Source of the DNA: Weeksellaceae bacterium | GTDB taxonomy: Bacteria; Bacteroidota; Bacteroidia; Flavobacteriales; Weeksellaceae | Length of the DNA stretch: 64,000 nt | Direction: 5' to 3' | NCBI GenBank assembly: GCA_949788275.1 | Contig: OX460916.1 | Span: 2,542,001-2,606,000, forward strand | Shown: positions 14,011-53,477 of the stretch, in pieces | Numbering within the stretch: the first letter of the stretch is position 1 | How the letters are laid out: the number at the start of each line of letters is the position of its first letter | The notes under the pieces: generated by a model | What the model saw: only the letters and a program-made list of their open reading frames with translations | What the model was told of the DNA's origin: nothing | Databases searched by the model: none | Program-made: the position numbers and the translations under genes

Positions 14011-14035
14011 TTGGGCGGCCGCTACGCGCCGGGCT
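14011..14035 (+). repeat. dispersed repeat copy A, left part (cut by IS110)
   Basis: The 5' box of the window's dispersed intergenic repeat, ending in CCGGGCT. It stops at the IS110 left end and resumes at 15411 after the element. Joining the two sides over a shared CT gives GGGCTATACGCTCTATC, almost the same as intact copy F (GGGCTATGCGCTATATC at 53222). Confidence 0.85.
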
Positions 14036-14059
14036 CATATCTTAGCAAAAAATATTAAC

Positions 14060-14250
14060 TTTCATAATAATTAACTAGAAAACAATACAAAGCTGCATAA
14101 TTGAAACCGGGCTAGATACATTAAAAATGATATTGACGTTATAGGAAAATCAGCTTTGTTTTTTTACAAAAAGTTACAATAAGTACTTAGGCACTGATGA
14201 CTTTCATTAGATGCAGAATAAATATGAGCAAGGACTATTGTAAAAAATTT
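14060..14250 (+). ncRNA. predicted IS110 bridge RNA (seekRNA)
   Basis: The left end folds into two loops, each closed by a perfect 8-bp stem. Loop 1 (CAAAGCTG 14088-14095 with CAGCTTTG 14151-14158) holds CCGGGCT (14107-14113), identical to the left side of the target, and TATAG (14140-14144), the reverse complement of CTATA on the right side. Loop 2 (TTACAATA 14174-14181 with TATTGTAA 14236-14243) holds AGTACTT (14182-14188), matching the right-end donor AGTACCT with one wobble, and ATATGAG (14222-14228), the exact reverse complement of the CTCATAT junction. The order LTG, RTG, LDG, RDG is that of known bridge RNAs. Exact RNA ends are unknown. Confidence 0.85.
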
Positions 14251-14273
14251 GTTTTCCCTAAAACGATAGAATT

Positions 14274-15362
14274 ATGAATTTAAAGTACAGTGTTGGAATC
14301 GATGTTTCAAGTGAAAAAATCGATGTATGTCTTTCAAGGATTGATGATAAACAGAGTGTTAAAGTGGTATCTAGTAAGAAATTTACCAATGGATTATCTG
14401 GTTTTTTAAAGCTAGAAGAATGGATTGAAAAAAATCATAAAGAAAAAGAGATTTCTTTAGTTATTTGTATGGAAGCCACAGGAGTATATCATGAAAATTG
14501 TGCGTTTTATTTTCACCAAAAAGGCCATAAAATATCTATTATACTACCTAATAAAGCGAAGCATTATTTAATTTCATTGGGACTTAAATCAAAAAATGAT
14601 CGCATAGATGCAAAAGGTTTATCTCGAATGGGAGCCGAACAGTGTTTAGAATTATGGGAACCGATGGGTATTTTCTTTTATAAATTACGCCAGTACACGC
14701 GTCAATATCAGAATTTACAAGAACAAAAGACCGTTTTTAAAAACCAACTTCATGCTTTTGAACATTCGATGTATGATAATTCTGAGATGATGGAATATCA
14801 GAAAAATATAATATTATTAATTGATAGTCAGCTTAAAGGGATAAAGGAATCTATAAAGAAACATCTCGATTCAGATCCTATAATTAAGCAAAAGGTAGAA
14901 GGGATTTGTAAGATTAAGGGTATTTCGACTCTTAGTTTAGGAACAATACTAGCAGAGACCAATGGTTTTTCTTTATTTAAAAATTATAAACAACTTGTTT
15001 CTTTTGCAGGATTTGATGTGGTTGAGAATGAATCGGGAAATAGTCGAGGCCGAACACGAATATCCAAAAAAGGAAATGGTCGTATAAGAAGAGCGTTGTT
15101 TATGCCCGCTTTTACAGCAGTAAAACATAATGAAAAGCCTTTATCAAATCTATTTCATCGAACTTATGAAAAACATGGAATAAAGCTGAAAAGCTATGTC
15201 GCTGTGCAAAAGAAGTTACTGGTTTTAGTTTATCATTTATGGAAGAAGGATCAAGCTTATGATCCTCTGTATAATCAAATGAAATATAATAGCCCCAAAC
15301 AAGTTGAGGCTACACCAGATAAACTTACTTTTCTAGAAGAAAAGAAGCTTTCTATTATTTAA
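14274..15362 (+). CDS. IS110-family transposase/recombinase
   Basis: A 362-residue recombinase. The N-terminal RuvC-like DEDD domain is complete: Asp10 (GIDVSS), Glu67 (CMEATGVY), Asp109 and Asp112 (KNDRIDAKG). A coiled middle region precedes the C-terminal Transposase_20 domain (KIKGISTLSLG, SFAGFDVVENESGNSRGRTR, ISKKGNGRIRRALF), which holds the conserved serine used for DNA cleavage in this family. Family knowledge: it joins target and donor DNA bound by the bridge RNA encoded just upstream. No frameshift or stop, so it is probably functional. Confidence 0.95.
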   Translation: MNLKYSVGIDVSSEKIDVCLSRIDDKQSVKVVSSKKFTNGLSGFLKLEEWIEKNHKEKEISLVICMEATGVYHENCAFYFHQKGHKISIILPNKAKHYLISLGLKSKNDRIDAKGLSRMGAEQCLELWEPMGIFFYKLRQYTRQYQNLQEQKTVFKNQLHAFEHSMYDNSEMMEYQKNIILLIDSQLKGIKESIKKHLDSDPIIKQKVEGICKIKGISTLSLGTILAETNGFSLFKNYKQLVSFAGFDVVENESGNSRGRTRISKKGNGRIRRALFMPAFTAVKHNEKPLSNLFHRTYEKHGIKLKSYVAVQKKLLVLVYHLWKKDQAYDPLYNQMKYNSPKQVEATPDKLTFLEEKKLSII

Positions 15363-15410
15363 CAAATTTAATCAAAAAAAGGATAAAAAGTTAGGTTTTT
15401 AAGATAGTAC

Positions 15411-15497
15411 CTATACGCTCTATCTTTGCTGCCACAACATCTAATAGAGTTGAAACCACAGGTAGCAGCAAAGGATGCCGCTGCTATCCCTGCCGCA
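15411..15497 (+). repeat. dispersed repeat copy A, right part
   Basis: Resumes the repeat after the IS: TATCTTTGCTGC, then GCAGCAAAGGATGCC forming the inner inverted repeat, and the 3' box CCGCTGCTATCCCTGCCGC. Low-complexity GGTTTAAGATTTCTGG-like repeats follow to about 15580. Confidence 0.85.
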
Positions 15498-15610
15498 GGC
15501 TAAACCATAAACCAAAGGTTTATGGTTTAGCGTTTCAGATTTCAGATTTCTGGTTTAAGATTTCTGGTTTAAGGTTTAAAAATAGTAAACCGATTCTTTA
15601 AGAGCGTTTT

Positions 15611-15750
15611 GCGGAAGGGATTGCAACGGCAGCTTTTTCTTTGGGAGGTCAGCTTTACCATTAAAGCCCTTTTTTCACCAAAGAAAAACTACAGTGGAAA
15701 GCCCGCCGCTTATTATTTTTGCTCATCAAAAATAATAAGCGGGCCGCCCA
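15611..15750 (-). repeat. dispersed repeat copy B (variant, reverse)
   Basis: Read on the minus strand it has the same plan as the other copies: GGGCGGCC, a hairpin (CGCTTATTATTTTTG against CAAAAATAATAAGCG), GCGGGCTTTCCACT, a long imperfect stem (TTTCTTTGG against CCAAAGAAA) and a 3' box GCCGTTGCAATCCCTTCCGC. Internal sequence differs strongly from copies A, D and F, so structure appears to be conserved more than sequence. A short open frame over it is not credible as a gene. Confidence 0.7.
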
Positions 15751-33394: not shown

Positions 33395-33511
33395 TTGGGC
33401 AGCCGCTACGCGCCGGGCTTTCCACTCCCAATCTTTGCAACAAGAAACGAAAGGGTTGTATGAAATTTCGGCATGTGTTGCAAAGGATTTCCGCTTCAAT
33501 CCCTGCTGCGG
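33395..33511 (+). repeat. dispersed repeat copy C (diverged)
   Basis: Starts TTGGGCAGCCGCTACGCG, keeps CCGGGCT at 33413-33419, then CTTTGCAAC against GTTGCAAAG as inner inverted repeat, and ends TTCCGCTTCAATCCCTGCTGC. It lies in the 437-base gap between the S41 pair and the HD-domain gene. Confidence 0.8.
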
Positions 33512-53201: not shown

Positions 53202-53312
53202 TTGGGCGGCCGCTACGCGCCGGGCTATGCGCTATATCTTTGCTGCAACAACCTCTCAGGTTAATGGAAAATGAAGGTGGCAGCAAAGGATGCCGCTGCT
53301 ATCCCTGCCGCA
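53202..53312 (+). repeat. dispersed repeat copy F (intact)
   Basis: The best complete forward copy: TTGGGCGGCCGCTACGCG, CCGGGCT (53220-53226), ATGCGCTATATC, the inverted repeat CTTTGCTGC/GCAGCAAAG, and CCGCTGCTATCCCTGCCGC. It fills the 311-base gap between the hydroxylase and radC together with AT-rich DNA. Confidence 0.9.
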
Positions 53313-53477
53313 AAACGCTTCGCTAAATTTAATAATTTGAAAAGGGGGATATGGAAATAGAAAATTCGTAATTTTTCGCTCATAACTACTTCCATTTTTT
53401 GAAGAATCGGCCTTATTCTAACAGCTCACATCGATGGACCAATCACAAACAACGAATTCCCTTTTACCTAACATAAC

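Follow-up and report, generated by a model that had tools for sequence, protein, structure and literature searches.

An intact Bacteroidota IS110-group element with a predicted left-end bridge RNA, inserted at Flavo-1 repeats

Bridge RNAs with four guides (PMC11208160), RNA guidance in IS1111 and IS110 elements (PMC11187229) and insertion sequences that enter palindromic repeats (PMC1525189) are already in print. In the closest described system, IS621 of E. coli, the relevant passages of PMC11208160 describe a DEDD/PF02371 recombinase and a left-end bridge RNA whose target loop precedes its donor loop. Two target guides (LTG, RTG) and two donor guides (LDG, RDG) follow in that order, the core is CT, insertion is into a dispersed palindromic repeat, REP, and the RNA is made from a sigma70 promoter across the joined ends. 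In ISEc21 and the IS1111-type seekRNA elements (ISEc11, ISPa11), an RNA from a non-coding region likewise guides target choice, lying downstream of tnp in the IS1111 elements, and ISPa11 goes to the REPs of P. aeruginosa, according to the part of PMC11187229 that covers them. ISPsy8, ISPa11, ISPpu9, ISPpu10, ISRm19 and ISRm22 insert into high-copy intergenic palindromic repeats, and the passages of PMC1525189 on these REP-targeting elements name neither Bacteroidota nor Flavo-1 nor a guide RNA. The Flavo-1 RNA motif (RF01705) was listed in 2010 (PMC2864571); in F. psychrophilum it occurs sense and antisense to transcripts, and the passage on it in PMC9723704 offers no clues to function.

The locus reported here shares with IS621 the recombinase type, the arrangement of loops and guides, the CT core and the dispersed palindromic target. 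The window is the whole stretch of 64,000 nt that was analyzed, and coordinates are positions in it unless another contig is given (Table 1). CT flanks the element on both sides, the right core being 15411-15412, and the limits given in a preliminary description of this DNA were exact. Its view of the element as intact also held. The reading frame matches PF01548 and PF02371 (E = 1.6e-18 and 6.4e-20, both over the cut-off), and the host genome, a single 3.34-Mb contig, holds five copies. Four of these are identical; the window copy differs from them at nine positions, all in the reading frame within 14807-15249, with D326N as the only amino-acid change, and the leader is identical in all five. 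As read by eye, residues E67, D109 and D112 are invariant in the protein alignment A3, and so is D10 in the five of its six rows that extend that far; from the family motif, these are probably the DEDD residues. The left end of 238 nt carries the match to the bridge RNA model described below, and the right end extends 50 nt beyond the reading frame. The RNA thus lies upstream of the recombinase gene, unlike that of the IS1111 group, which lies in the right end. The element is a new, intact member of the IS110 group, of the known RNA-guided kind. It is set apart from IS621, it seems, by sequence and clade, and further by its target, Flavo-1 instead of REP, and by an RTG read as five contiguous nucleotides instead of four. 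We consider it very probable that its recombinase works with a left-end bridge RNA that reads both the Flavo-1 target and the element's own joined ends; this would provide an intact Bacteroidota IS110 recombinase with a fully read bridge RNA.

Table 1 Features of the element and its surroundings in the 64,000-nt window
Feature	Position	Strand	Basis
IS110-group insertion sequence	14036..15412	+	1377 bp, counting one CT core at the right end; block common to five copies whose flanks differ
Left CT core dinucleotide, target side	14034..14035	+	CT at both ends in the 35 elements kept; CT was demanded by the picking script
IS110 recombinase reading frame, 362 aa, PF01548 (DEDD) and PF02371	14274..15362	+	Domain matches
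Left part of the interrupted Flavo-1 repeat	14013..14035	+	Left target CCGGGCT at 14029-14035; joined flanks match Flavo-1 across the junction in 5/5 copies
Right core and rest of the interrupted Flavo-1 repeat	15411..15505	-	Right target CTATA at 15411-15415; cmscan with RF01705
Neighboring Flavo-1 copy	15606..15712	+	44.8 bits; orientation opposite to the interrupted copy
Predicted bridge RNA, match to model R1	14083..14242	+	113.1 bits, E = 2.9e-22; the two other matches in the window up to E 10 score 16.2 and 14.6 bits
Target-loop closing stem, 5' arm	14087..14095	+	9 bp with 14151-14159
Target-loop closing stem, 3' arm	14151..14159	+	Arm-shuffle test; RNAalifold
Hairpin between LTG and RTG, approximate limits	14115..14135	+	MFE; changes on both sides at 4/6 pairs in relatives
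Donor-loop closing stem, 5' arm AGTT	14172..14175	+	Pairs with 14233-14236
Donor-loop closing stem, 3' arm GACT	14233..14236	+	Arm-shuffle test; RNAalifold
LTG CCGGGCT	14107..14113	+	Same as left target 14029-14035; guide-target tests
RTG TATAG	14140..14144	+	Complementary to CTATA at 15411-15415; A at the fifth right-target position
LDG AGTACTT	14182..14188	+	Fits right-end donor AGTACCT (15406-15412) with one wobble
RDG ATATGAG	14222..14228	+	Complementary to CTCATAT (core and left end)
Half of the proposed circle-junction promoter, -7-like box TATCTTAG	14038..14045	+	One mismatch to the consensus TAnnTTTG
Other half of the proposed promoter, -33-like box TTAG	15391..15394	+	One mismatch to the consensus TTTG; joining of the ends would put it 20 nt from the -7 box

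Relatives were sought in 148 genomes from the family and in 395 each from the order and the class, these draws overlapping. From 43 loci read for their ends, 35 elements in 18 types were kept as set one; L085, L086, L011, L088, L112, L113, L115 and L117 were dropped, one or both ends being without the motif. A scan of genome contigs with the single protein brought no relative, and a scan with alignment A3 kept 80 of 173. These 80 named loci were reduced by eye by 11 (near-duplicates, contig edges), 69 entered the end search, and 31 elements in 28 types were used as set two, leaving out L134, L140 and L178 (repeats of set one), L170 (ambiguous), L146 and other Psychroflexus loci (without flank) and a remainder without a motif end. 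Because the picking motifs for both ends were taken from set one, elements whose ends differ from these are absent, and part of the conservation of TAT and the CT cores comes from this selection.

When the ends of these 46 types are joined, positions -21 and -19 relative to the junction are T and G, respectively, in 46/46, letters unused in picking, and T at left-end positions 7 and 8, also in 46/46; TAT at positions 3-5, and partly the T at 7, were demanded by the picking motif. Of the 46, 33 have TTG 20 bases before TA (16 have TTTG), and 27 have the complete TAnnTTTG box. Bacteroidota housekeeping promoters carry TTTG at -33 and TAnnTTTG at -7 in the account given in PMC2483708, and the relevant passage of PMC9723704 places the TAnnTTTG box at -12 to -5, which would put the G of TTG at -33 and the start near 14050. 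Since the joined ends resemble such a promoter, the RNA may come from the excised circle. We propose that the bridge RNA is probably transcribed from a -33/-7 promoter of Bacteroidota type made up by the two ends together, which would differ from the sigma70 type of IS621 and exist only in the circle. The two boxes of the window element are each one letter off, so the promoter would be either weaker here or misread. As TTG was not enriched 20 bases before TAnnTTTG in 157 kb of the host genome (6 seen, 4.5 expected), the argument for a promoter is drawn from the junctions only. The motif could instead be a recombinase signal or a mark of shared ancestry, with no promoter at all, a reading that we regard as unlikely, though not negligible, and that would alter one step of the mechanism. 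It accounts for the lack of enrichment, for the deviating boxes of the window element and for conservation among ends that belong to one insertion sequence clade and were in part picked by their left-end motif. It does not predict the fixed letters at -21 and -19 outside the picking motif, a spacing that reproduces both published box positions, or the junction TTTG-N20-TAGGTTTG of a distant second IS110 in the host genome (family B, below), and the bridge RNA of IS621 itself comes from a junction promoter. The literature searched, which had most subscription papers and preprints outside its scope, yielded no paper linking IS110 with TAnnTTTG.

The leader matched no Rfam family at the gathering score or up to E 1, and a covariance model, R1, was therefore built from relatives. 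Of fourteen leaders extracted, L093, which is close to L083, was omitted from alignment A4; the 13 remaining exclude the window element. R1 nevertheless places the leader far above anything else in the 64 kb (Table 1); across the genome, with 150 of 2415 candidates scored, it found the five copies and nothing else. It also matches 15 of 21 further loci, the six missed being L120 (a type of set one), L103 and L106 of family B, and the remote L046, L049 and L052. RNAalifold, run on the 13 relatives, returned both closing stems and the hairpin between LTG and RTG, with 15 of 21 consensus pairs changed on both sides. In a MAFFT alignment of the 18 donor domains, the closing stem of one group is shifted by a column relative to that of the other, and the stems were therefore tested by pairing cognate versus shuffled arms. 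The target-loop stem scored 447 with cognate arms versus 289.7 (sd 17.1) with shuffled ones, the own arm ranking first in 13/18 types, and the donor-loop stem 173 versus 135.3 (sd 6.4); 0 of 20000 permutations reached either sum. The own donor arm came first in only 5/18 types because the arms are short; stems of 3-5 bp are at this place in 18/18 types, in forms as different as GCC/GGC, AUCU/AGAU, GUCU/AGAC and GAC/GUC. Two 8-bp complementarities had been proposed as the closing stems, and both exist in the leader. The first (14088-14095/14151-14158) is part of the 9-bp target-loop stem. The second (14174-14181/14236-14243) was rejected as the stem closing loop 2: its 8/8 pairs here fall to between 1 and 6 of 8 at the same positions in the other 17 types, and it is incompatible with 14172-14175/14233-14236, the stem whose counterpart was selected by RNAalifold from the 13 relatives.

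The donor guides vary together with the ends they would read. In set one, which these counts cover, the left end is CTC[A/G/C]TAT, and the RDG letter before GAG (T, C or G) complements its fourth letter in 18/18 types; the LDG has the five letters of the right end (AGTAC, AGTAT, AGAAT or AGAAC) in 16/18, G183 and G614 being off by one. Placing these guides by best fit to the donor favors agreement, and their constant place beside the closing stem speaks against an artefact. The automatic search missed one or both donor guides in some types of set two.

Taken by itself, the window element is less telling. The four guide strings of the preliminary description are all where it placed them and in the published order, and it judged chance an unlikely source of them. 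The four together score 25.5 of 32, a value reached by 2/1000 dinucleotide shuffles of the leader (best shuffle 26.0), with the same 2/1000 for both L001 and L004; for elements of other types (L010, L084, L089 and L123), 0/1000 shuffles reach the own four-guide score. That judgement fails for the target guides of this copy alone: among the 18 targets, the own target ranks 8th in free scanning, 4th at spacing 28-36 and 3rd at 30-34, with 7/17, 3/17 and 2/17 foreign targets, respectively, fitting the leader better. The single-sequence fold is not significant (z -1.31; 24/200 shuffles as good). With 2/1000 shuffles and unremarkable target guides, the window copy is suggestive only, and the comparison decides.

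Each leader was therefore scored against its own and the other targets with equal freedom to slide, and the assignment was permuted 20000 times. In set one, the cognate sum with free scanning was 244.1 versus 207.3 (sd 3.7, maximum 228.9) for shuffled assignments, with 11/18 types ranking their own target first or tied; the values were 237.9 versus 196.8 (sd 3.9; 12/18 first) at spacing 28-36 and 236.8 versus 192.4 (sd 4.0; 14/18 first) at 30-34. Both spacings were picked after the free scan of set one, and 30-34 was fixed beforehand for set two, which gave 348.5 versus 293.7 (sd 4.5; 18/28 first). In every run, 0/20000 permutations reached the observed sum; the types being related by descent, this is a control on matching and no strict probability, and set two is partly dependent, the target of L205 being close to that of G288 and L136, L138 and L144 being alike. 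Examples of guides are GCCGTCTACT and CTCGATTA in G250, GGTCTCGGCT and CTATGA in G288, and TTGCAAACT in L143; the LTG letter at the core T mismatches in several types (G118, G048a, L136, L138 and L171). Leaders thus fit their own targets better than shuffled ones in both sets. Cases of other targets with unchanged guides were sought: the five host copies have identical guides and a single kind of target, and where relatives have another target, their guides mostly differ too and fit it. The exceptions, whose own target is not first, are 4/18 types in set one at spacing 30-34 (the window element, G458, G413 and G746) and 10/28 in set two (L128, L136, L138, L139, L158, L162, L168, L171, L177 and L188).

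These comparisons bear on the possibility that the leader is a regulatory 5' region, a transposase-control RNA, with the protein reading Flavo-1 DNA or its structure and the guide matches being incidental. The modest shuffle and fold statistics of the window element alone and the structured nature of Flavo-1 are what such a leader would lead one to expect. The fitting guides of relatives with other targets, their similar spacing and a leader structure kept through compensatory change are not, and we hold this explanation to be very improbable. R1, the guide-target tests and the covariation with the donor ends instead support the reading of the leader as a left-end bridge RNA whose four guides keep the published order, with CT as the core, and the 46 related guide-target sets are a source for targeting rules.

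Repeat-like targets were also noticed among the relatives. In G413, five copies of a related IS110 (L087, L097 and L100-L102) have flanks resembling the halves of a 31-bp palindrome, GACCTCACAGGTTTTTAAAACCTGTGAGGTC, which occurs in that genome at 11 places with ≤3 mismatches (control 0). The target of the G118 and G048 elements was considered as a high-copy repeat and set aside, the palindrome search giving too few matches (2 in G118, 5 strand matches in G048, 0 in the window's host genome).

The target strings CCGGGCT and CTATA had been read correctly beforehand; that they belong to a Flavo-1 repeat had not been seen. On the minus strand, the cmscan match to RF01705 at 15403-15505 covers the right half of the interrupted repeat; its 38.6 bits (E = 2.6e-6) fall short of the gathering score, 42. 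All five copies have GGGCT at the left and AT(A/T)CGCT at the right. When the flanks were joined and compared with 30 Flavo-1 loci, 5/5 copies gave at least one match spanning the junction, versus 0/50 control joins, 3 of which had a Flavo-1 match that did not span it. The empty target site of the window element, as reconstructed from its flanks, is Flavo-1 at CCGGGCT^ATACGC, with insertion at the same point in 5/5 copies, sequence-specific, with the short CT core and no longer target duplication. The host genome contains at least 141 Flavo-1 matches over the cut-off among 150 of 853 candidates scored, and so offers many landing places. The motif GGGCTATNCGC occurs 82 times versus 5 for the pattern read backwards, and 51 of the 82 sites fall inside, or ≤15 bases from, a Flavo-1 match among the 150 listed; together these 150 cover 0.58% of the genome. 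At position N of this motif, the fifth of the right target, A is present in 4/5 occupied sites versus 6/82 intact sites counted by eye (Fisher p = 4e-4), and A is the letter that the guide TATAG calls for. With a one-base bulge, the RTG would have seven pairs (CGT-T-ATAG); the excess of A at the fifth position can be explained without it.

Flavo-1 is also the target of a second IS110 in the same genome, family B (L103-L110), with eight copies, all outside the window, and 23% protein identity to the window element. Its insertion sites are GCTTCTATC|CCTGCCGC or variants, near the other end of Flavo-1, and in 6/8 joined sites a Flavo-1 match spans the junction, two of these matches being only 22 and 25 bases long. 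Its leader has GCTTCTATC, GCAGGGAT (the complement of ATCCCTGC) and ATAGAAAT, which equals its right-end donor, and its junction is consensus-like as a promoter. Family B is thus a distant IS110 that inserts at the other Flavo-1 end, with matching guides as read from its own leader. That the five copies of the window element arose by duplication or by recombination between repeats, with no RNA-guided insertion, would suit the identity of four copies and the resemblance among host repeats, and is scarcely credible given that flanks outside the repeat differ between copies, that all five end exactly at the CT core and that family B behaves alike at another Flavo-1 point.

In the mechanism that we favor, the DEDD/PF02371 recombinase would act with a left-end bridge RNA of about 160-200 nt, one loop reading Flavo-1 at CCGGGCT^ATACGC through LTG and RTG, the other reading the joined ends of the element through LDG and RDG. 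The element would leave as a circle whose joined ends, AGTAC-CT-CATAT, probably supply the -33/-7 promoter for the bridge RNA. RNA and recombinase would then bring the circle junction together with an unoccupied Flavo-1 copy, and strand exchange would take place at the CT core. This would fix the orientation of the inserted element and leave the core as the only duplicated sequence; integration under these guides would fall at CCGGGCTATACGC. The limits, copies, target, stems and guide-target covariation entering this scheme come from the sequence comparisons above, whereas circle, strand exchange and RNA binding are carried over from IS621 by analogy, and the promoter type is our proposal from the joined ends.

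Flavo-1 over the gathering score also adjoins four of 12 relatives scanned for RF01705, namely L128 (Flavobacterium muglaense), L136 (F. micromati), L138 (F. psychroterrae) and L144 (Flavobacterium sp. 28A); L133 and L158 gave weak matches and six none. Beside 20 more relatives, no RF01705 match was found at the gathering score, so Flavo-1 targeting is not general in the clade. The flanks of L083 and L093 in G458 look Flavo-1-like by eye, with no RF01705 match up to E 0.05. L136, L138 and L144 lie at the 5' end of the Flavo-1 model and the window element at its 3' end; the clade of the window element appears to have switched Flavo-1 ends. We lean, by a small margin of confidence, towards a broader interpretation in which Flavo-1, which Rfam files as a small RNA, is in these genomes a high-copy DNA repeat serving as a landing site common to two or more distant IS110 lineages, whose bridge RNAs have been programmed to it repeatedly, at two ends, and are transcribed only from the excised circle by a split Bacteroidota-type promoter. 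Flavo-1 as an insertion sequence target was not found in the literature searched, most subscription papers, preprints and supplements lying outside it. The passages of PMC2864571 and PMC9723704 treat Flavo-1 as a candidate RNA and assign it no function; here it would gain a role as landing DNA for two IS110 lineages.

Further Flavo-1 copies were noted in the window at 33407-33511 and 53214-53313, both on the minus strand. The copies at 15403-15505 (minus) and 15606-15712 (plus) have opposite orientations and are separated by about 100 bases, an arrangement resembling a paired repeat. One Y1_Tnp (PF01797) gene, the sole match found, is present in the host genome at G000:C1:720185-720529 (L208), and if RAYT-like, it is a possible mover of Flavo-1.
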